Below are positions 1 through 10,071 of a stretch of DNA of 64,000 bases, in pieces (position 1 is the stretch's first letter; each line of letters starts with the position of its first letter). The notes beneath the pieces were generated by a model that was not told the origin of the DNA, ran no database searches, and was given only the letters and a program-made list of their open reading frames with translations. The stretch is taken from assembly GCF_009184865.1 (NCBI RefSeq), contig NZ_CP045096.1, positions 3,534,001 to 3,598,000 on the forward strand, given 5' to 3'. The position numbers and the translations under genes were made by a program. The stretch comes from Streptomyces phaeolivaceus (GTDB lineage Bacteria > Actinomycetota > Actinomycetes > Streptomycetales > Streptomycetaceae).

Positions 1-2962
1 CATGCAGGCTCAGCAGGTTGCGGCCGAACGGCGGGGCGGGCTCGGCGGGGAAGGAGACCTCGGACTCCACGAGCATCTCGGCGGGCAGCAGGGGGTCGTC
101 GGTGGCCCCCGGCCGGCGTTCGACCAGGCCGAGCCGCCCGAAGTCCTTCACCATCGCGTTGATGGTGGCCAGGTAGGGCGTGGGCAGCCAGCGGTCCCAG
201 TTGGCCCGCCGGGCGAACGCGGCGAGCCGTTCCTCGCGCGGGCGCGTGGTGTCGACGGCGATCAGATAGTCCTCCTCGGCGAGGACGTGGTTGGGCACCC
301 GGGCGGGCCAGAAGGTCGGCAGATACGGGTCGTGGCGCTTCTCGTACCCGGAGCGGCAGCTCGCGGTGTCCGTCTGCCAGGGCACCGCCATCCAGCGGGT
401 CAGGTCGCCGGGGCCCTGGGCGTACAGCGGCCCGTCGTACGCCAGGGCGGCCTGCGGGGTGAGCACCCTGCCGTAGGGACGCTCGGGGTTGTCCTTCGAC
501 CGGTGGCGGATACGGAACGGCGCGCTGTACATCGTGGTGTGGCGCAGCGGCCAGGTGATCTCGCAGCCGGGGTGGAAGGCGTCGGCGATACAGAAGGACA
601 GGGCGGCGCGGTCCAGGGCGGCGGGCCGGGCGGCGAGCGGCAGCCGGTCCAGCGGCCGGGGTGCGGGGGCGGCGCCGGGGACGAGGTCGGAGACGAAGTC
701 CCCGGCGGCCCAGAGCGCCAACTGCCGTGTCTGGAGGGGGGAGAGGGCCAGGTGCTGGCGGGCGGAGACGGCGGGCAGGCTCATCGCGTCGCCGTAGACG
801 GGCGGCCAGGGGATCGGGGAGGTGCCGTCCCGGTCGGGGTCGCGCATGGTCTTCGAGATCTGTCGGCGCAGCTCCGTATGGCGTGGGCCGGGGTCGGCGA
901 GGGCGGCCAGCAGCCCGGGGTCGAGGAAGTGTTCGCGTCCGCCGTGTCCGAAGAGGGTGGCCAGGCCCTGGTTGACCCATTGCAGATCGCACAGGCGGCG
1001 CAGGATCGGCAGGATGTCGTGGGTGAAGGACACCGGCTCCGGCTCGGGGAGCGCTCCGGCCGTGACGAACGCGTCGCGCAGCAGGTCGTACAGCGTGCGT
1101 ACGGACTTCAGCTCGGGGGCGTAGTTGGGCGGGCCGACCACCACCCAGGCCGGTTCGACCGGCAGGGCACGGCCCTCGACGCGGACCTCGGCGGTGACGG
1201 GGCCGTCGGAGATGTCGTCGTACCAGCCGTCGTTGTTGGCGAAGGTGTCGGCCTCCTTGCCGTCGGCGGACTCGGCGACGCCCCGGCCGCCGAGGAAGAT
1301 CAGCCGCCCGGCGTCGTCGGTGCGCAGCTCGCCGAGGTAGACCGGGATGTGGAGGAACCGGCCGGTGTCGAAGCGCAGTTCGGGGCCGCCGGACCGGTCC
1401 CGGCCGCGTACGGAGCGGGGGCCGGGGTCGATGGCCAGCCCGTCCCGGTCCGCGCCCCCGACCCGCGGGTTGCGCAGCCGGCTCTCCTCGGTCCGCGCGG
1501 CCTCGGGGATGTCCAGGGCCAGCTGGAACTGGTACCAGGCGGGCTTCTTGTTGGCGACGTGCGCGGTCCAGCGGATCTCGGCGTTGTCGGCGGTGAGTTC
1601 GGCCACCGGTTCCCCGGCCGCGTTGTAGCCGTAGATACGGAACCGGGCCGCCTGCCGCTTCAGGGCGCCGGTGGCGTCCTTGTACGAGCCGGTGGGCAGC
1701 GGCGGTTCGTCCTCGGTCTCGGGGGCGAGGAAGAACTCCTCGGCGCTGTCGCCGACGCGGGCGACACCGATCGCGGGGTGGATGGCGGCCCTCACGATCC
1801 GGGTGTCGCGGGCCGGGGGCTCGGTGGACGGGGGCCGGGCGGGGCCGGGTTCGGCGGCCGGGACGCCGTTGGCGTCGCGGCGCCGACCGGCCGAGGCCTG
1901 GTAGACCGTCGCGCGGGCCTCGGCGATGCTGCCGGCGGGCTTGTGCTCGGCGAGGCTGTGCCAGGGGTTGAACGCCAGGTTGGCGCCGTACGCCGCCTGG
2001 CCCCGGCCCCGGACGTCCTGCCGGGCCAGGGTCAGCCGAGCCACGGGCACGGGGGCGCTCGCGGACTCCTCCCAGCGCACGGTCGCCCGGTCCAGCGGCA
2101 TGGCCTCCGCGTCCGTGCGGAACTGCACGAGCAGGTCGAAGGCCGCCTCCCCGGCGGCGAGCCGGTGCGCGAGGTCGGCCGCCAGATGGCCGGGGTTCTC
2201 CTCGGGCGGGGTGGCGGCGGGGTCGGCGGGGGCGCAACCGGCGGGCACCAGCTTGTACTTGACGAACCGGTCCGCGCCGAAGGAGTACGGCAGCACACCC
2301 CAGTAGGTGGCCGTCAGCGCGCTCTCCTCGGGCTTCGCCATGTCGTCGAGGATCCGCCGGGTCACCGGGTGGTCGCGCAGATAGGACTCGTAGTCGTTGT
2401 GGACGACACCGGCCCGGGTGAACTCGCACATGTCGCGGGCCGTGTCGACGAAGAACACGTCGTGGTTCTGCAGCAGCAGGTCCTGGGTGTCGGCGTCGCC
2501 CTCCCCGGCGAGCAGCTTGGCGCCGGGCACCCCGAAGAGCTTGACGCCGACGCCGACCGTGGTCAGCAGGTCCGGGCGGCTGGGCACGGTGTCGCTGGAG
2601 AACCGCACCCAGGCGGTCAGCCCCTCGGGCCGCTGCCGGGCCAACTCCAGGAATCCGACGCGCAGTTCCTCGGGAAGGTCCGCGCGGACGGTGAGCGTGC
2701 CACGGGCGGTGCCGTGCGGTTTGAGGAACACCGGCCGCTCCACGGGATCCTGCCCGCGTGCGATACGCCCGCCCTGGGACCGGTCGACGAACATCTCCTT
2801 CAGCGCGGCCCCCGGATCCGACGCGCAGTCCGGCTCGGCGGGTCCGTCGTTCTCGGCGGGGCCGGCGGGTCCGTCGTTCTCGGCGGGGCCGGTGGGTTCA
2901 GAGGATCCGGCGGGGCCGGTGGGCTCGGCGGGTCCGGAGGAGGAAGCGGAAATGACGGCCAT
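1..2962 (-). CDS. Catalase-like / LodA-type CTQ oxidase fusion, C-terminus off the window
   Basis: Found by translating the minus strand by eye; the frame is open for 987 codons from ATG 2962 and leaves the window without a stop. GGGAG lies 8 nt before the ATG. Residues 1-45 are a Gly/Pro/Ala/Glu-rich repeat tail. Residues about 55-330 resemble a small y4iL-type catalase-family domain (WVRFSSD, GVGVKLFGVPG, TQDLLLQN, VFFV). From about residue 390 it reads as LodA: IHPAIGVARVGDS, EIRWTAHVANKK, VVGPPNYAPE, then SFCIADAFHPGCEITW (Cys791, Cys800) and DLTRWMAVPWQTD (Trp857, Trp862). LodA/GoxA enzymes carry a cysteine tryptophylquinone made from one Cys and one Trp, and oxidise amine groups of amino acids with release of H2O2. 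Which of the two Cys/Trp candidates form it cannot be decided here. A fused catalase-like domain could handle the peroxide (inference). Substrate unknown. Confidence 0.8.
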   Translation of the reverse strand, partial: MAVISASSSGPAEPTGPAGSSEPTGPAENDGPAGPAENDGPAEPDCASDPGAALKEMFVDRSQGGRIARGQDPVERPVFLKPHGTARGTLTVRADLPEELRVGFLELARQRPEGLTAWVRFSSDTVPSRPDLLTTVGVGVKLFGVPGAKLLAGEGDADTQDLLLQNHDVFFVDTARDMCEFTRAGVVHNDYESYLRDHPVTRRILDDMAKPEESALTATYWGVLPYSFGADRFVKYKLVPAGCAPADPAATPPEENPGHLAADLAHRLAAGEAAFDLLVQFRTDAEAMPLDRATVRWEESASAPVPVARLTLARQDVRGRGQAAYGANLAFNPWHSLAEHKPAGSIAEARATVYQASAGRRRDANGVPAAEPGPARPPSTEPPARDTRIVRAAIHPAIGVARVGDSAEEFFLAPETEDEPPLPTGSYKDATGALKRQAARFRIYGYNAAGEPVAELTADNAEIRWTAHVANKKPAWYQFQLALDIPEAARTEESRLRNPRVGGADRDGLAIDPGPRSVRGRDRSGGPELRFDTGRFLHIPVYLGELRTDDAGRLIFLGGRGVAESADGKEADTFANNDGWYDDISDGPVTAEVRVEGRALPVEPAWVVVGPPNYAPELKSVRTLYDLLRDAFVTAGALPEPEPVSFTHDILPILRRLCDLQWVNQGLATLFGHGGREHFLDPGLLAALADPGPRHTELRRQISKTMRDPDRDGTSPIPWPPVYGDAMSLPAVSARQHLALSPLQTRQLALWAAGDFVSDLVPGAAPAPRPLDRLPLAARPAALDRAALSFCIADAFHPGCEITWPLRHTTMYSAPFRIRHRSKDNPERPYGRVLTPQAALAYDGPLYAQGPGDLTRWMAVPWQTDTASCRSGYEKRHDPYLPTFWPARVPNHVLAEEDYLIAVDTTRPREERLAAFARRANWDRWLPTPYLATINAMVKDFGRLGLVERRPGATDDPLLPAEMLVESEVSFPAEPAPPFGRNLLSLH
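2837..2917. repeat. 27-nt tandem repeat in the 5' end of the LodA fusion gene
   Basis: Two perfect 27-nt units (2837-2863, 2864-2890) are followed by a diverged third (2891-2917). On the minus strand they encode the Gly-Pro-Ala-Glu-Asn-Asp-rich N-terminal tail of the catalase/LodA fusion. The unit keeps the reading frame, so copy number can change without breaking the protein. It probably forms a flexible linker. Confidence 0.85.
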
Positions 2963-3320
2963 GGCTCGATCTCCCGCGATTGGCGCTACCGGGGCCGCAC
3001 CGGACGCACAGGCTCATGGAGCGCTGTACAGGCGCGCACCGTCCGTACAGCTCCCCATGCTGACAAACAAGCGTGCGACGCGCGACCGAGGGACGGGCCG
3101 CTCCGTCCCGCACGGGCCGCCGCCGTCCGGGCCCGGCGGCGCCGAGTCGCACGTCCCCCGGAACACCACCAGACTGGACAGCGGGCCCACGCCGCCGAAC
3201 GCGCCCACCGCGCGCCGCGCGACCGGCGCCCCAACGTCCCCGCACCCAACGTCCCCACCCCCAACCGTCCACCCCAACCGTTCACGCCTCACGCGCGAAC
3301 GGGAGTCGGGAGGTGCCGTC
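2963..3320. other. Divergent intergenic region between LodA fusion and propeller gene
   Basis: No gene is called here. The region lies between two divergent starts and should hold both promoters. The last 120 bases are C-rich with short iterations of CCCCAACCGT/CCCAACGTCCC type. No convincing operator palindrome was seen. Confidence 0.5.
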
Positions 3321-4220
3321 ATGGCCACCGAACACGACAGGCGGGACCGGCTGGCGGCCGAACGCGCCGACACGCCGTTGGTACGTCTCCTCGACACGGC
3401 CCGCGCCAGAGGCCACGAGATGGTCCGGCCGCCGGACCCGACCGCACCGCCCGCCCCCTCCGCCCCGGCCGCACCACGCCCGCTCTCGACGATCCGGGTC
3501 GGTGAGAGCCCGCACAGCCTGGCGGTCAGCCCCGACGGCACCCGGCTGTACGTGAGCGACTTCAAGGCGGACTCCGTGGTGGTGGTCGACCTCCCCCGCG
3601 AGGAGGTCGTGGACACCGTCGCGGTCGACGACGGGCCCTACGGCGTGGCGGCGAGCCCGGACGGCACCCGGCTGCACGTCGCGGTCCCCGACACGGAACT
3701 CCTGCTGAAGATCGAGTTCCCGGACGACGTCTCCGGCAGCCACTTCGGCCACGCGCCCTACGGCGTGGCGGCCGGCCCCGACGGGCAGCGCGTCTATCTG
3801 GCGCTGGCGCTGGAGGACCGGGTGTGGGTCACCGACCAGTTCGCCATGGGCGACTTCGCGTCCGTCCCCGGCCTCGACTTCCCGGTCGGCGTGGCGGTGA
3901 GCCCCGACGAGAAGTACCTCTACGTGACGCACTACTTCGCCGGCCGGGTGTCCGTCGTCGACCTCGGCCGCACCTCCGTCATCTCCACGATCCCCGTCTC
4001 GAACGGCCCCTACGGCGTGACGGTGACCCGCGACGGAAGCCGCCTGTACGTGGCCCACTTCCCCTACGGCACCGTCTCGGTGATCGACACCGCGCGCGGC
4101 GAGGTGACCGACACGATCGCCGTCGCGGACGGTTCACGCGGCGTGGCGGTGAGCCCCGACGGCTCCCGCCTCTACGTCACCGACTTCTTCGCCGGAACGG
4201 TGTCGGTGCTCAGGCCGTAG
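3321..4220 (+). CDS. YVTN/YncE-type beta-propeller protein, six repeats
   Basis: 299 residues from ATG 3321, chosen because GGGAGG sits just upstream and the product begins at a sensible hydrophilic N-terminus. After a Pro/Ala-rich stretch (residues about 40-55) there are six repeats of about 42 residues, each with a core like GVAVSPDGSRLYVTD followed by a hydrophobic strand and a GPYG-like turn. This is the SMP-30/YVTN/40-residue beta-propeller pattern. No signal peptide is visible, so it is probably cytoplasmic. Its 3' end overlaps the convergent flavoprotein gene by 49 bases. The tryptophylquinone methylamine and quinohemoprotein amine dehydrogenases also have a propeller subunit, so a structural role beside the quinoprotein is possible, but that is inference; this fold is common and its function is unproven. 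Confidence 0.85.
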   Translation: MATEHDRRDRLAAERADTPLVRLLDTARARGHEMVRPPDPTAPPAPSAPAAPRPLSTIRVGESPHSLAVSPDGTRLYVSDFKADSVVVVDLPREEVVDTVAVDDGPYGVAASPDGTRLHVAVPDTELLLKIEFPDDVSGSHFGHAPYGVAAGPDGQRVYLALALEDRVWVTDQFAMGDFASVPGLDFPVGVAVSPDEKYLYVTHYFAGRVSVVDLGRTSVISTIPVSNGPYGVTVTRDGSRLYVAHFPYGTVSVIDTARGEVTDTIAVADGSRGVAVSPDGSRLYVTDFFAGTVSVLRP

Positions 4221-5242
4221 CGGGGCGGCACGACGCCGCCCCGTCCGCGCAGTGTCGAGCGGGTGGTGTCGATCTCGTCCTGCCAGACGTCCGCCGTGAA
4301 GGCGCTCTCGTAGAGGCGCAGGCAGGTGCGCAGATGGTCGTGGTGGGCCACGCGCAGCCGGGTCGTGTAGTGGGCGCACAGGGCGTCCACCGGGACACCC
4401 CGGGCGGCGGCGTCGATCACGGCGGCGGCCAGGATCGCCGTCCGCAGGGCCTGTGCGGTGCCCGTGCCGCTGAGCGGGTCCTGCCGCAGGGCGCCCGCGC
4501 CGACGACCAGCCGGCCCCCGCCCGCCCGGGGCGCCCCGGGCGGGACGGCCGGGGCCAGATGCACCCTGGGCGCCGCCGCCGGTGCCACGGCCGTACGCGG
4601 CGGGCGGCTCAGCAGGGCGGCGAGCGGGGACTCGGCGAGGACACGGGCGAGCAGCCCGGCCGGGTCGGCGGCGGGGCCCGGGACCATCGCCTGGACCAGA
4701 CAGTGGTCGCCGCCCAGCGGGGTGAGCTGGAGCCAGCCCAGCTCGGTGCAGTCCAGGCGGGCCGTGGTCCGGTCGCCGCCCCGCCGCAGCGGGGCGGTAC
4801 CGGCCAGCAGCGTCCGCCGCCCGCACTGCCGGAGCACGGACCCACCCGGAACGGCGCCCGAGGCGGCGTCCGCGGTGACGGTCCACTCGGGCGGTTCGCC
4901 GCTCCCGGGCGGTTCGGCCCTCCCGTCGCCGAGGTCGAGCAGCTCCCGCATCCGGGCGGCCAGGGCGGCGCCGTCGACCGCGTACGCCCGCTGCGGGAAC
5001 CGGGGTGAGCGCTCCCCTGCCCCCCACCGCACCTGTCGGTGGGTCAGCCACCAGCCGCCGCGCGGGAGTTCGTCGCCCCAGAGCGAGCCGAGCAGGTCCA
5101 GCGCCGGTCCGGTCAGCAGCAGCGGGCGGAACGCCGGGCCGGCCGGCGGCGGGGCGGGCCGGACCCGGTGGCCACGGGCGAGCAGCAGCCGCGCGCAGGT
5201 CAGTTCCGCCAGCCCCGAGCCGGCGATCGCGACCAGGGTCAC
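4172..5242 (-). CDS. LodB-like FAD-dependent oxidoreductase (cofactor maturation)
   Basis: 356 residues. The N-terminus VAIAGSGLAELTCARLLLARGH is a Rossmann dinucleotide-binding segment with a GxGxxE-like turn, and GALRQDPLSGTGTAQALRTA near residue 270 fits the FAD-contacting segment of the tryptophan-halogenase/LodB monooxygenase group. The start ATG overlaps the stop of the upstream gene in an ATGA, so translation is coupled. LodB-type flavoproteins are needed for tryptophylquinone formation in LodA, probably by oxygenating the tryptophan. Here the gene lies between two LodA-related reading frames and could serve either one. It is shorter than many halogenase-type flavoproteins. Family assignment rests on context and the FAD motifs. 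Confidence 0.72.
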   Translation of the reverse strand: MTLVAIAGSGLAELTCARLLLARGHRVRPAPPPAGPAFRPLLLTGPALDLLGSLWGDELPRGGWWLTHRQVRWGAGERSPRFPQRAYAVDGAALAARMRELLDLGDGRAEPPGSGEPPEWTVTADAASGAVPGGSVLRQCGRRTLLAGTAPLRRGGDRTTARLDCTELGWLQLTPLGGDHCLVQAMVPGPAADPAGLLARVLAESPLAALLSRPPRTAVAPAAAPRVHLAPAVPPGAPRAGGGRLVVGAGALRQDPLSGTGTAQALRTAILAAAVIDAAARGVPVDALCAHYTTRLRVAHHDHLRTCLRLYESAFTADVWQDEIDTTRSTLRGRGGVVPPRYGLSTDTVPAKKSVT

Positions 5243-7158
5243 CCGCCGTCCAGGGCGGTGAGTGCCGCGAGGACGGCCTCGACGTCGGCCGTGTGGCGCC
5301 GCGCCAGCCGCAGCAGTCGCCGGTCTCCCTGGACGAGGACCCGCAGCCTCTCGGTGACGGTCGCGGCCGCGTCCCGGGTGAGCCGCCGGTAGGCGGCGCT
5401 CAGCTCGGCGGCGGTGCCGCCGTCCTGGTCGGGCAGGTCCGGCATGGTGAAGCGCGGGCCGACACCCCGGTCCGCGAGCACATGATGCAGATCGTGCATG
5501 TTGGTCATCACCAGACGGGTCTGGGCCATCAGCGCGCCGCCGGCGCCGTCGAACCGCTCCAGCGACGCGCGCAGCGTCCCGAGCAGCAGCACGTAGTACT
5601 GGTCGCAGACATCGAGCAGCCCGGTCTCCGTAGCGTCGCGGGGGGCGCCGAACCGGCGCAGGTACCGCTCCTCCTCAAGCCCGGCCAGATGCCCCTGCAC
5701 CGCGAGGAAGCGGCGGTGGTGGTCGCCGCCCTCGTCGATGATGAGCTTGATGAGGTGGGCGAGCCGGTCGCTCTGCGGGAAGAGGTCCGGCTGTCCGACC
5801 ACGGACGCGTGCAGCGCGACGTACATGCCGTCCAGGCCGTCGGGGTCGTCCGGATCGTCGGCCGTGTGCCGACTGGGCGCCTCCACGTCGACGAACCACT
5901 GCAGCCGTTCGGCGGTGAGCCGTTCCAGCCCGAACTGGTGGTCGACCTCCCGGTCGATGACCTCGGCCCGGTCGAGCACGGGCTGCCGGCCGAACATGGC
6001 GAGCGCCTCGTTGACCCAGCGCAGATGGCGCATCTCGTCGACCGCCACGGCGAACACCTCCTGCCCGGCCGCGTGCGCCCGGCGGGTGAGTTCGTCCGCG
6101 CTCCGGGGCAGGGACAGCGGCGCGTTCAGCGAGTAGTGGGCGTACAGGTACTCCACGCACAGCGCGTGTTCCACCCCGGCCAGCCTGATCAGTTCCTTGG
6201 CCACGTCCTCCGGGCTCATCAGGTCGCGGCGCGCGGCGGCCACGGCGCGCGCGGCCGGCGGGGGACTCACCGGCTCCGCCTGCTCACGGTCGTCGAGGAC
6301 CACGGGCAGGACGTTCCAGTCGCTGATCAGCCGCGGGTAGGTGAACTCCAGCGCGGTGCGCCGGCCTCCCTCGTCGCTGGCGAGGTCGGCGGCGGGCGGG
6401 GTGCTCCGGTCGGCGCGCAGGAAGTTGACCTCGGGCACACTGCCGTCCGTGCTGCTGGTGACATCGGGTTTGGAGGCGGCCCAGTAGAAGCAGCCGCAGT
6501 CCCGGAAGTCGTACTGCCAGGGCGCGCACAGACTGCGGGTCAGTTCGCCCGGCCGGTACACGTCCGGGTCGATGACGCCGTCCGCGTCGAGATAGCGGGC
6601 CCGTGGGGCGGTCAGTACGACGGACTCGATCCGGCCTTCCGGGTCCAGCTGCACGGAGCTGCTGCCGTTGAGCCGCGTGCCGTTGAGGTCGGGCACGGCC
6701 GGGGGCGGTGTGCCGGGCGGTCCGAGCGGTTCGAGGAGCACGGTGACGGCGCCGGCCAGCAGGTCGTGGACGTGCCGCCAGACGTCCAGGCCCAGCAGTC
6801 CCGCGCAGTCGACGGTGGGGACCCGCCGCTCGCTCTGGTCCACGGTGGTGCGCCCGCACAGGGCGCGTACGTACAGGGGGCGGGCGTCGGACAGGTCGGC
6901 GTCGGTCAGCCCCTGTGACCGGGCGGGCTCACCGGTGAAGGCGAGGACACGTGCCCCCTCGCCGCGGTGGAAGTCGACCCTGAGCCCGGGGAAGAAGCCG
7001 GTGTCCAGGTTGCGCTGGTCGAACTCCAGGCCGGGGAAGCTGTTGTCGACGCCGCTCTCGGGGCGGGTGCCGACGGGGTTGCCGGGCACGCGGTAGTCCG
7101 CGCGGGCGGTGAGGTTGCGCGGAAAGAACTTCCCGTCGGGGGCCGGAAGGTCGGGCAT
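5239..7158 (-). CDS. LodA C-domain-like protein fused to a ferritin-like domain
   Basis: 639 residues from ATG 7158 with AAGGAG 6 nt upstream; the radical SAM gene ends 10 nt earlier. Residues about 36-230 align by eye to the cofactor half of the LodA fusion: NSFPGLEFDQRNLDTGFFPG matches the DAFHPGCEITW stretch, and PGELTRSLCAPWQYDFRDCG matches PGDLTRWMAVPWQTDTASC, so the PWQ Trp (Trp214) is kept. The positions of both candidate CTQ cysteines are Gly and Leu here. Residues about 310-500 are a ferritin-like helical bundle of the VioB/RebD type (LAGVEHALCVEYLYAHY, VDEMRHLRWVNEAL, DEGGDHHRRF), with Glu and His metal-ligand candidates. This gene is the third in the operon. Function is unknown; it may be a modified oxidase, or a substrate and partner of the radical SAM enzyme. 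Confidence 0.8.
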   Translation of the reverse strand: MPDLPAPDGKFFPRNLTARADYRVPGNPVGTRPESGVDNSFPGLEFDQRNLDTGFFPGLRVDFHRGEGARVLAFTGEPARSQGLTDADLSDARPLYVRALCGRTTVDQSERRVPTVDCAGLLGLDVWRHVHDLLAGAVTVLLEPLGPPGTPPPAVPDLNGTRLNGSSSVQLDPEGRIESVVLTAPRARYLDADGVIDPDVYRPGELTRSLCAPWQYDFRDCGCFYWAASKPDVTSSTDGSVPEVNFLRADRSTPPAADLASDEGGRRTALEFTYPRLISDWNVLPVVLDDREQAEPVSPPPAARAVAAARRDLMSPEDVAKELIRLAGVEHALCVEYLYAHYSLNAPLSLPRSADELTRRAHAAGQEVFAVAVDEMRHLRWVNEALAMFGRQPVLDRAEVIDREVDHQFGLERLTAERLQWFVDVEAPSRHTADDPDDPDGLDGMYVALHASVVGQPDLFPQSDRLAHLIKLIIDEGGDHHRRFLAVQGHLAGLEEERYLRRFGAPRDATETGLLDVCDQYYVLLLGTLRASLERFDGAGGALMAQTRLVMTNMHDLHHVLADRGVGPRFTMPDLPDQDGGTAAELSAAYRRLTRDAAATVTERLRVLVQGDRRLLRLARRHTADVEAVLAALTALDGG

Positions 7159-7168
7159 GGGGGCTCCT

Positions 7169-8647
7169 TCAGACGAGGCCGGCGGCGCCGGCGTCTGCTG
7201 CGGGGTGGGCGTCCGGCACCGGCGGCCGGCGGAAGAACTCGGGGTCGGCCTGCGTGAGTTCCACATAGGCGCGCAGGCAGAAGGCCAGCCAGCCGCGGAT
7301 GTAGTCGCAGCCGGGCCGTCCGCGTCTGCTCACCTCGTGGTAGCAGCCGCCCCCGCACAGATACCGGGCCCAGCAGGAGCGGCACGGCTCGGCCCGGTCG
7401 ACGTGACCGGCCCTCAGATGGCGGCGGCGGGCTTCGGTGTCGGGCCCGTCGGCGACGGAGCCCATGGCGTGGGCGGGGTCGTCGACCAGGCGGTGACAGG
7501 CGTACAGCCCGCCCTCGGCGGAGGCGCTGAGATAACCGGCGCCCGCGCCGCAGGGGTAGGGGCGGTGGGTGCCTCGGTGCAGCTGTTCGAGGGCGGTCAG
7601 CAGGTTCCCGAAGGGGTAGCTCCGGCCCGCCGACAGCTCGCTCAGGGCCCGCTCGCCGCACTCCACCATCCGCTCCAGGAACCCGGCGAAGGCGGCCGTG
7701 TCGATCTCGTACGCCGGGTCGGGGGCGCTGACCACGGCCGCGAAGCCGACGTCGTCGAAACCGAGCCCGATGCCGTGCTCCAGTACGTCGAGCAGGCGCG
7801 CGGTCCTCGGGGTGACGCTGACCCGGGCCGCGAGATGACGCGGGCGGCCGTGCCGGGCGAGCACGTCCAGACCGGCCCGCAGCCGGTCGTAGGCGCTGGC
7901 CCCGCCCGGGGCGTGCCGCAGCGCGTCGTGACCGGCCCGGTCGCCGTCCAGGCTGACGGTGACGGTGAAGGGGTGCTCGGCGAAGAGCCGGGCGTCCTCG
8001 GGCCGTACGGTGGTGAGGTTGGTGGTGAGGGAGAAGCGGACGGTGTGTCCCGTCTCCCGGCCCGCCCGCGTGGCGTGGGCGACCACGTCGTGGATCAGGT
8101 GCCGGGCGAGCAGCGGTTCGCCGCCCATGAAGCCGACCACCACGTCCGCCCCCGGCGCGGCCTCGGCCAGCAGCCGGTCCACGGCGGCGTACGCCGTGTG
8201 CCGGGGCATCGCACGGGCGGCGCCGCCGAAGCGTCCCTCGTCCGCGTAGCAGTGGCCACAGCTGAGGTTGCAGGCCTGCATCACGTTGAGGGAGAGGGAG
8301 GAGAGCGGGGGCGGTTCGAGGGGGGTGCCGTCGATCCTTCGCGGCCGGTCCCACAGCGGGAGCCCGAGCCGGTCGGCGAGGTCCGCCGGGGTGCCGTCGG
8401 GCTCCGCCGCCCACCGCTCCAGCCGGGCGGCGAGCGGTGCGGGCAGGTCGTAGATCCGGCTGCCGTCCGAGACGAGCAGATGCGCGCCGAGCGCACTGCG
8501 GAAGACCTTGAACTCGGCGGCCCCGTCGGGCGGCCGGACCGGACCGCCGGGTGGCTGACCGGCTCCGGCCGACGGGGGTGGCGGACCGTCCGACGGTGGG
8601 AGCGGGCCGTCCGGGGGGCGGCGCCCGATCTGGAGCAGTACGGTCAT
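7169..8647 (-). CDS. Radical SAM/SPASM peptide- or cofactor-maturation enzyme
   Basis: 492 residues. The start at ATG 8647 overlaps the preceding stop in an ATGA, which fixes it against the longer open frame. Residues 1-42 are Pro/Gly-rich. Residues about 45-110 resemble a PqqD-like recognition domain (EFKVFRSALGAHLLVSDGS). The radical SAM cluster motif CNLSCGHC is at Cys126/130/133, followed by GFMGGEPLL (SAM contact). The C-terminal SPASM region has CGAGAGYLSASAEGGLYACH and CRSCWARYLCGGGC, enough cysteines for two auxiliary clusters. The layout matches QhpD and other enzymes that form thioether or C-C crosslinks in protein substrates. The likely substrate is a product of the same operon (inference). 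Confidence 0.88.
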   Translation of the reverse strand: MTVLLQIGRRPPDGPLPPSDGPPPPSAGAGQPPGGPVRPPDGAAEFKVFRSALGAHLLVSDGSRIYDLPAPLAARLERWAAEPDGTPADLADRLGLPLWDRPRRIDGTPLEPPPLSSLSLNVMQACNLSCGHCYADEGRFGGAARAMPRHTAYAAVDRLLAEAAPGADVVVGFMGGEPLLARHLIHDVVAHATRAGRETGHTVRFSLTTNLTTVRPEDARLFAEHPFTVTVSLDGDRAGHDALRHAPGGASAYDRLRAGLDVLARHGRPRHLAARVSVTPRTARLLDVLEHGIGLGFDDVGFAAVVSAPDPAYEIDTAAFAGFLERMVECGERALSELSAGRSYPFGNLLTALEQLHRGTHRPYPCGAGAGYLSASAEGGLYACHRLVDDPAHAMGSVADGPDTEARRRHLRAGHVDRAEPCRSCWARYLCGGGCYHEVSRRGRPGCDYIRGWLAFCLRAYVELTQADPEFFRRPPVPDAHPAADAGAAGLV

Positions 8648-10071
8648 GAGTTCGGCTCCGCGTCCTCGGCCAGCTGGGCGGCCCAGCCGACCAGCAGGTC
8701 GTACTGGCGGCGGGTCAGGTGCAGGGGGTAGTTGTCGGAGCCGCGCATTCCGCTGGGCATCTGCCAGGTGTAGAACCGCGAGGAGCGGAGCGAGGCGCCC
8801 CCGTCGGCGGCCGGCTCGGCGGGCGGGCGGACCCAGGTCGGGATCAGGTCGCGCCGTTCCCGGATCATGTCCTCCAGCACCTCCAGGGCCACGAACCGGC
8901 GGTGCCGGCGCCGGCCGCGCTCGGTGAGGGCGAGCAGCAGTCCGAGCAGCGGCTGCGGAGACTCGAAGGCCAGGGCGCGCGCGTCGGCCGGGGACACGTT
9001 CAGAGCAGGGGCGATACGGGCGTTCTCGTTGCCCGACCGCTCGTTCTGCACATCCACGTTGACCGCGACCATGGTCTCCAGCACGCGTTCGAACAGGTCG
9101 CGGATTTCGAGCGCGGTCTGCTCGTCCGCCACGAAGCCGGGCGTGTGGACCTCCTCCCGTTTGAGCCGGTCGGCCAGGCCGTCGGCGAGGGAGACGAAGG
9201 GCCTGCGGTCGGGAGCGAAGTCGGGCGGCGCGGCCACGATCCGCGCGGTGGCCGCCAGGCCGCCGGGCAGCCGGACGGTGACCGTGCCGTCGCACACGTC
9301 GTCGACGAGGCCGAGGCCGCGGCGGAACTCCGCGCCCGCGAACAGGTTGCCCGGAGCCGTCCGGTCGTCGTCCCCCAGGGTGAAGCCGACCCAGCGCGAC
9401 GCCGGGTTGAGGATGCGCCGCGCGGCCGGGATGTCGTAGTCGGCCTCCGACCGGGGGTCCCGCAGGTTCGTGGGCCCGTAGACGGCGCCCGTCCCCGGGG
9501 TGAACCGCAGCCGCAGCCCGGGGAGTTCCTCGTTGGGCACGGGCAGTTGCACGGCGCCCAGCGGCAGGCCGGCGCCGGAGGGGACCAGGGGCGCCTCCTC
9601 GTCCTGCGGGGAGACTCCGGCCAGGACGCGCGCCTGGTTGTCGTCGCCGGTCAGCTCGACCCGGGCCTCGATCCGGTCGCCGGCCCGCTGGGTGAGGTGG
9701 TGCGCCTTGAGGTTGGCGACCGAGACCTCCCAGCGGACGTCCGCCAGGCTCAACCCCGAGTCCGCCAGGATCTGTTCCGTCAGCGGCCCCTCGCCGGACC
9801 TGCCGTCGACGGTCCAGGATCCGTGCACCTCGAAGTAGGGGCAGACCGGCCGCCAGCCCGCCTCGTCCTTGAACCGCACGCGCTCCGGCATACGGGCGCT
9901 CAGCCTGCCGTCGGCGTCGAGGTCCAGAGTGAGGTCGGGCACGACGGTGGTCCTGCCCGTGCCACGGGGGGTGAGATCGCTGGGCCCCCAGCGGTAGTTG
10001 TCACAGGGCACCGTGGAGGGGCCCAACCGGGCGAAGGCCAGGGGTGGTTGAAGCCAGAGCCGTTCGATCAC
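8644..10071 (-). CDS. LodA N-domain-like protein, first gene of the operon
   Basis: 475 residues from GTG 10071, preferred to the ATG at 10140 because AAGGAG sits 7 nt before it and the product then starts VIERLWLQPPLAFARLGPS. That stretch aligns to IHPAIGVARVGDS of the LodA fusion. Further matches in the same order are VRWEVSVANLKAHH against IRWTAHVANKK, IVAAPPDFAPD against VVVGPPNYAPE, and LHLTRRQYDLLVGWA near the C-terminus against LALSPLQTRQLALWA. The protein therefore looks like the non-cofactor half of LodA, with the cofactor half encoded two genes downstream. No signal peptide or membrane segment. Activity unknown. Confidence 0.75.
   Translation of the reverse strand: MIERLWLQPPLAFARLGPSTVPCDNYRWGPSDLTPRGTGRTTVVPDLTLDLDADGRLSARMPERVRFKDEAGWRPVCPYFEVHGSWTVDGRSGEGPLTEQILADSGLSLADVRWEVSVANLKAHHLTQRAGDRIEARVELTGDDNQARVLAGVSPQDEEAPLVPSGAGLPLGAVQLPVPNEELPGLRLRFTPGTGAVYGPTNLRDPRSEADYDIPAARRILNPASRWVGFTLGDDDRTAPGNLFAGAEFRRGLGLVDDVCDGTVTVRLPGGLAATARIVAAPPDFAPDRRPFVSLADGLADRLKREEVHTPGFVADEQTALEIRDLFERVLETMVAVNVDVQNERSGNENARIAPALNVSPADARALAFESPQPLLGLLLALTERGRRRHRRFVALEVLEDMIRERRDLIPTWVRPPAEPAADGGASLRSSRFYTWQMPSGMRGSDNYPLHLTRRQYDLLVGWAAQLAEDAEPNS

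Follow-up and report, generated by a model that had tools for sequence, protein, structure and literature searches.

Enzymes that carry cysteine tryptophylquinone (CTQ) have so far been treated as two kinds: the LodA/GoxA enzymes, which are matured by a flavoprotein only, and quinohemoprotein amine dehydrogenase (QHNDH), which combines crosslinking by a radical S-adenosylmethionine (rSAM) enzyme with the action of a flavoprotein. To our knowledge, LodA maturation needs no rSAM enzyme. Passages of PMC4417212 describe the maturation of LodA with LodB and, in section 7, give LodA Cys516 as the CTQ cysteine. For QhpC of QHNDH, excerpts of PMC8172795 describe CTQ made from Cys37 and Trp43 together with the thioethers Cys7-Glu16, Cys27-Asp33 and Cys41-Asp49; they also state that PapB makes Cys-Asp thioethers and term it a homologue of QhpD. 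Here we analyse a 64,000-nt window of the 10.18-Mb genome of Streptomyces phaeolivaceus (NZ_CP045096.1, GCF_009184865.1, positions 3,534,001-3,598,000 of the forward strand) that holds a four-gene cassette in which a LodA relative is divided between two genes, A and B, and is accompanied by genes for an rSAM enzyme and a flavoprotein (FP). In the literature searched, with subscription papers outside its scope, this split LodA/rSAM system was undescribed; PMC7876137 alone pairs 'radical SAM' with 'LodA', and in the part of it covered the pairing does not concern this system.

We consider it likely that A and B form a two-chain CTQ oxidase of the LodA/GoxA type, the B chain of which receives thioethers of the QHNDH type. 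The cassette resembles LodA/LodB and GoxA/GoxB in the fold of A, in the predicted CTQ site of B and in having a flavoprotein in the operon, but differs from them in its two chains, its extra Cys-Asp pairs, its rSAM gene and the ferritin-like domain on B. With QHNDH it has in common a QhpD-like rSAM enzyme and a QhpG-like flavoprotein, and B repeats the arrangement Cys-x5-Asp-x3-Cys with an Asp six residues after the Trp (W+6), whereas the diheme alpha and beta-propeller beta subunits are absent and the predicted target is a protein of 639 aa. The cassette may thus join two enzyme families thought separate.

A LodA relative divided between two genes

The four genes are tightly packed on the minus strand in the order A (8644..10071, 475 aa), rSAM (7169..8647, 492 aa), B (5239..7158, 639 aa) and FP (4172..5242, 356 aa), and their open reading frames (ORFs) lie where an earlier sequence-only reading of this DNA had placed them. 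That reading described the genes as coupled by ATGA overlaps, which is so for A and rSAM but not for B and FP, where FP starts with GTG and the overlap is GTGA, nor for rSAM and B, which are separated by a gap of 10 bp. Among the matches listed, the nearest homologues of both A and B are proteins of Streptomyces sp. P17, with 84% identity.

A comprises the N-terminal half of a LodA/GoxA protein and B the C-terminal CTQ half followed by the ferritin-like domain. As the sequence-only reading had proposed, the two operon proteins carry LodA motifs in order: counterparts were located in A (LQPPLAFARLGPS, VRWEVSVANLKAHH and APPDFAPD) and in B (DNSFPGLEFD and PGELTRSLCAPWQYD). Matches to the Pfam profiles, which it had suggested as a check, stayed under the cut-off for both proteins, with 11.6 bits for A against LodA_N (E 0.27, cut-off 26.3) and 22.3 bits for B against LodA_C (E 1.2e-4, cut-off 25; 24.5 bits in the genome survey). 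Some B homologues carry PF18417 in precomputed annotation. Comparison of predicted folds with LodA bore out the first half of the pair: A has the LodA/GoxA N-terminal fold. The Foldseek and VIA rows shown for B contained no LodA/GoxA chain, the good rows being ferritin-like, but they rest on a model in which residues 10-45 and 211-234 have a predicted local distance difference test score (pLDDT) <50. LodA_C is rare, being found in 3 of 296 Actinomycetota genomes, the host included. A control genome, that of Caulobacter vibrioides, also matches LodA_N and LodA_C.

Single-chain relatives connect the two halves. At two loci (L027, 7996-12992; L028, 2543-8031) a protein of ~390 aa, here called mini-LodA, holds both LodA halves in one chain and is followed by rSAM and FP. 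Profile comparison with hhalign, the E-values of which are pairwise and uncalibrated on a database, matched A to mini-LodA (97.9%, E 5e-13) and the C-terminus of mini-LodA to B (99.0%, E 9e-18). In genome G883, from the genus of Bradyrhizobium sp. NAS96.2, A and a short B form one open frame of 840 residues (locus L112, 8712-11231), which adjoins a separate ferritin-like gene, rSAM and FP. Because this natural fusion and the mini-LodA single chains exist, A and B belong together. The tie of B and mini-LodA to the LodA/GoxA family is partly annotated already: the NCBI name on some of these proteins is 'LodA/GoxA family CTQ-dependent oxidase', and almost every named homologue of A in our list is labelled 'hypothetical protein'.

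The gene set is conserved. A single scan of genome contigs gave 26 loci, in 24 of which (type I, L003-L026) A, rSAM and B directly follow one another on the same strand; FP was detected next in 23 of these 24, and in the remaining one, L021, an FP-like ORF was seen by eye in the FP position. The other two loci (type III) are the mini-LodA loci L027 and L028, and plasmid searches added a type II, in which B is short (~263-300 aa) and the ferritin-like protein has its own gene, annotated in L062-L065. Type I loci span Actinomycetota, Cyanobacteriota, Planctomycetota, Pseudomonadota, Nitrospirota and Chloroflexota. This co-occurrence, together with the natural A-B fusion, upholds the picture drawn by the sequence-only reading of a LodA relative in two chains with an rSAM enzyme and a flavoprotein, a locus mixing the LodA and QHNDH strategies.

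The residues of the predicted CTQ site are invariant in B. Among the 120 homologues listed of 726 (8000 candidates scored), C211, D217, C221, C223, W226 and D232 are kept in 120 of 120, and B has the hallmark of the LodA family, a CTQ-like Cys and Trp with an Asp four residues before the Cys. Residues 202-237 of B pair with the equal-length stretch 497-532 of LodA, which places C221 on LodA Cys516 (E 1.4, weak alone), and W226 was matched to the CTQ Trp through the W-P/A motif that both share, which comes after a loop whose length varies. Residues 211-232 (CAPWQYDFRDCGCFYWAASKPD; 6463..6528, minus strand) are therefore predicted to hold the CTQ pair C221/W226 and the thioether pairs C211-D217 and C223-D232. 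Since Cys, Trp and Asp are placed as in CTQ and are invariant, CTQ is the simplest reading, and ordinary CTQ is likelier than the new protein-derived cofactor that had been suggested earlier for this locus. It is quite unlikely that the rSAM enzyme and the flavoprotein build a non-CTQ cofactor on B; the divergence of the type I flavoproteins, which group by themselves, speaks for it, as does C223, which is two residues from C221 and could compete for Trp226, but the Cys, Trp and Asp stand as they do in both LodA-like proteins and QhpC, without exception in the homologues listed.

The ferritin-like domain of B (residues ~311-571; 5446..6228, minus strand) matches PF12902 with 45 bits, over the cut-off of 22.3, and its residues E330, E375, H378, E426, E476 and H480 are kept in 120 of the 120 listed homologues. 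The closest solved fold to residues 311-571 is 3hl1 (CC_0557) of Caulobacter vibrioides. Unlike this family (CC_0557; VioB/RebD), B carries the domain after a CTQ module in the same chain. The partner of VioB is a flavin amino-acid oxidase. In Nostoc sp. UHCC 0302 (L067, 4025-5659), a PF12902 ferritin-like domain stands at the N-terminus of the A-like protein.

QHNDH-type cysteine pairs and the rSAM gene

The 12 QhpC sequences compared read LCxPMExDLYGCxDxCWWPAQxxD. Three spacings are equal in QhpC and B, namely Cys to Asp (6), Asp to CTQ Cys (4) and Trp to Asp (6), whereas the CTQ Cys and Trp are 6 residues apart in QhpC and 5 in B, and the third Cys (C223 in B) precedes its Asp by 8 and 9 residues, respectively. 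The pairs C211-D217 and C223-D232 occur in 120 of the 120 listed B homologues. B of the window lacks the Cys40-Glu45 pair, its residues 40-45 (S-F-P-G-L-E45; 7024..7041, minus strand), the site of a possible third crosslink, beginning with Ser; position 40 is Cys in 119 of the 120 listed homologues and in 32 of the 39 motif proteins counted below, so that this third crosslink would be optional. Judged from the sequences, what looks new is that a LodA-type protein has Cys-Asp pairs in the QHNDH pattern, and LodA-type enzymes with this pattern of crosslink residues were found in six phyla.

The extra cysteines go together with the rSAM gene. We compared 71 LodA-like CTQ motifs in the fetched loci, with a threshold of 140 bits for an rSAM frame. 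Each of the 39 proteins with a Cys six residues before the Asp (D-6) has the third Cys as well and is encoded by an open frame ≤137 bp from an rSAM frame; among the 32 LodA-like proteins without a Cys at D-6, none has the third Cys (0/32) and none has an rSAM frame within 3 kb (0/32). The count included 8 of 19 plasmid records, left out 6 of 24, 2 of 12 (both within those 6) and 1 of 3 genomes of other searches, and excluded GoxA-like frames failing the motif pattern, one each in L016, L126 and L130. It contains near copies (L113 is close to L064, several Bradyrhizobium negatives resemble one another, and L110 supplies two of the 32). A weak rSAM-like frame (57 bits, under the threshold) lies ~3.6 kb from the LodA-like gene of L132.

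These counts bear on the alternative that A and B make up a two-chain CTQ oxidase of the ordinary kind, for which the flavoprotein is the only maturation enzyme, with the rSAM enzyme modifying something else, such as a peptide. LodA, which is matured with LodB and is not known to need an rSAM enzyme, offers a precedent for it, as do the 32 ordinary LodA-like proteins with no rSAM frame within 3 kb. Yet rSAM tracks the extra cysteines (39/39 versus 0/32), and in all 24 type I loci it is flanked by A and B, without a gap large enough for a gene. When gene starts are extrapolated from the window proteins, all A-rSAM gaps in these loci are negative and the rSAM-B gaps are ≤141 bp, which leaves no room there for an additional gene encoding a precursor; a separate precursor peptide was rejected for this interval, the space outside the cassette not having been searched. 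The B-FP gaps reach 438 bp (L023). We judge flavoprotein-only maturation unlikely and thioether formation on B the better account of the rSAM gene.

Mini-LodA proteins provide a further comparison. Among the 120 listed of 145, with one row unscorable, an Asp at W+6 is present in 40 of 40 with the third Cys and in 5 of the 79 scored rows without it. Joint loss of the third Cys and its Asp partner is what would be expected of a crosslinked pair, though shared ancestry also contributes. The Asp alone is no sign of a crosslink, since it is present in the ordinary LodA proteins of L110, L114 and L138, where rSAM is absent. A different role for the cysteines would be that C211, C223 and C40 bind a metal or an iron-sulfur cluster, the rSAM enzyme being needed for another step on B. 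The clustering of the cysteines and the non-universal C40 (32 of 39) would fit such a site, and SPASM rSAM enzymes catalyse varied reactions. However, each of these cysteines is matched by an Asp or Glu spaced nearly as in QhpC, and a metal site would have no need for the third Cys of mini-LodA to be lost, as it mostly is, with its Asp. We regard metal binding as very unlikely and retain the thioether reading.

Many mini-LodA proteins (among P0277-P0360) keep the first Cys-Asp pair and have lost the third Cys and mostly its Asp. Searches for the rSAM context of the groups without the third Cys did not locate it: a search of 391 genomes gave only G006, a second search gave none, and a third gave no full-length relative; another search, of 398 genomes, found a full-length mini-LodA only in G006.

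Maturation enzymes and a proposed route to the cofactor

The rSAM protein contains the motif CNLSCGHC (CxxxCxxC) and matches Radical_SAM (E 2.5e-13) and the SPASM model TIGR04085 (48.2 bits, cut-off 27). It is a relative of QhpD and PapB, matching TIGR03906 (QhpD) with 275 bits (E 8.3e-82, under the cut-off of 453) and, second best, NF047865 (PapB) with 226 bits (under the cut-off of 340). It differs from the PapB ranthipeptide maturases in its predicted target, which is a large enzyme subunit here and small peptides there. A tree was built from 51 rows: 36 LodA-linked proteins, 12 QhpD (of which L029 and L070 are the same gene) and 3 other rSAM proteins of the host genome. The LodA-linked rows form a single group (99/100), adjoining QhpD and apart from the other rSAM proteins of the host, and the 27 type I rows, including the long-branched L066, also form a single group (98/99).

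FP is a flavoprotein of the QhpG/LodB kind. Against NCBIfam models it scored 41 bits for QhpG (E 1e-10, under the cut-off of 240) and 18 bits for GoxB (E 1e-3, under the cut-off of 400), and no Pfam match at E≤1 was found. In a tree of 72 flavoproteins, the type I proteins (25) group at 100/99 and the LodB-like proteins (32) at 99/99, and types II and III (11) form a group at 100/98 that stands beside three QhpG with weak support (80/35). Scanned against the same QhpG cut-off, the sister FP of type II locus L064 passes with 279.9 bits and that of type III locus L027 fails with 225.2. The 'LodB-like flavoprotein' of the sequence-only reading is a flavoprotein, but one nearer to QhpG than to LodB or GoxB, and the type I FPs fall outside the 32-row LodB group.

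The maturation of QHNDH, as described in parts of PMC7876137, serves as the analogy for the route that we propose. The rSAM enzyme would first make the thioethers Cys211-Asp217 and Cys223-Asp232 and, in most relatives, also Cys40-Glu45; the QhpG-like flavoprotein would then hydroxylate Trp226; and in a third step the Cys221-Trp226 bond would close and the quinone, CTQ, would form. A would supply the rest of the LodA fold, making A and B together one oxidase. Once mature, it would bind an amine or amino acid as a Schiff base on its quinone and oxidise this substrate, O2 serving as the acceptor and H2O2 being released, and the ferritin-like domain of B would probably handle the peroxide or act on the imine product. 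If this is true, QhpD-type chemistry would apply to a large enzyme subunit as well as to a small one. There are relatives both with and without the extra cysteines, which makes the role of thioethers in CTQ formation directly testable.

Several points weigh against this reading. First, the assignment of W226 as the CTQ Trp rests on a motif past a variable loop, not on an ungapped alignment, and in the model of B both the N-terminus and the loop 211-234 have pLDDT <50. Second, Ser40 leaves the host protein with no more than two possible QhpC-type crosslinks out of three. Third, neither the rSAM enzyme nor the FP of the window reaches its curated cut-off, for QhpD and QhpG respectively. Fourth, 27 of the 39 proteins with the extra cysteines are the window's own (1) or came from a pattern scan that included these cysteines (26), and similarity searches supplied the other 12, which are only partly free of selection, since the motif was often the best-matching stretch; 4 of the 32 negatives (L002, L021, L024 and L025) share a locus with a split cassette, the rSAM of which is 3.5-6.6 kb away; and related rows in this count are not independent. 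Lastly, a direct comparison of QhpC and B was not significant (hhalign score 17, reached by 15 of 150 shuffles), and the link between the two runs through mini-LodA.

Sister cassettes and neighbouring genes

QhpC matched mini-LodA in hhalign with 92.9% and a score of 43.9 (maximum of 150 column shuffles, 22.1) and ordinary LodA_C with 89.1% and a score of 39.3 (maximum of 100 shuffles, 22.3). When the three extra QhpC cysteines were masked, the score to mini-LodA dropped to 27.4, so much of this match rests on the extra cysteines. Going by these short profiles, the C-terminal region of LodA may have a core in common with the QHNDH gamma subunit. More tentatively, and with slightly less than an even chance in our estimate, this gamma subunit and the C-terminal domain of LodA would be one ancient CTQ module, and the rSAM-LodA cassettes (split A/B, separate-ferritin and mini-LodA/diheme) would link both families. 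The form found in the window would then be a two-centre oxidase, with a thioether-held CTQ and a metal-binding ferritin-like domain on one chain that works with a second chain, the quinone oxidising an amine and the second centre handling imine or peroxide.

The mini-LodA loci L027 and L028 share with the split cassette the CTQ and Cys-Asp motif, the rSAM enzyme and the flavoprotein, and differ from it in holding both halves in a ~390-aa chain, in the absence of a ferritin domain and in an upstream gene for an exported-looking protein with two CxxCH motifs. They represent a LodA-type system in which the heme partner is QHNDH-like. Among the cassettes with a short B, the ferritin-like gene of L068 is unannotated, yet a match is present, and none was seen in the stretch fetched for L069. 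L117 and L118 have a long B and the order A-B-rSAM-FP, and their FPs group with type II. In one sister cassette, the separately encoded ferritin-like protein shows a resemblance to the VioB C-terminus (55.7 bits, cut-off 1250). In Novosphingobium sp. RL4 (L068, 5059-6440) the A-like gene consists of two ORFs (251 and 209 aa), a further split or a sequencing error.

Genes around the cassette were considered as possible members. An upstream hydrolase and TetR gene were rejected, the 24 type I loci having given one weak hydrolase match (L016, 30.8 bits) and zero TetR. A beta-propeller gene (3297..4220, plus strand, start approximate) is convergent with FP; as a QHNDH beta subunit it was rejected as well, lying on the opposite strand and matching strongly only in L003 and weakly in L008 (22 bits) among the 24 loci.

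On the other side of this gene, a full-length GoxA-like protein, the N-terminal part of which is catalase-like, is encoded at 1..2962 on the minus strand, outside the cassette, and scores 435.6 bits against NF038173, under the cut-off of 750. Its gene exceeds the window by 131 bp, and the full-length protein has 1030 aa in L002 (8677-12962). The N-terminal part matches 3e4w (E 7.6e-4), an entry that we take to be catalase-related, and gave no Pfam match at E≤1. The full-length catalase/LodA fusion that the sequence-only reading saw alongside the cassette is thus GoxA-like, with its catalase part weakly supported and its gene running past the window. GoxA-like fusions with a catalase-like N-terminus are a known type, included in Table 3 of PMC4417212. 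A LodB-like gene belonging to the neighbour sits just outside the window, so the GoxA-like protein is probably matured separately. As in the window, a LodA/GoxA-like gene lies ≤10 kb from the split cassette in 4 of the 24 type I loci (L016, L021, L024 and L025), the gene of L016 being cut by the end of the stretch. A Mameliella genome (G001; L019 and L029) carries a QHNDH gamma gene and a split LodA cassette together.

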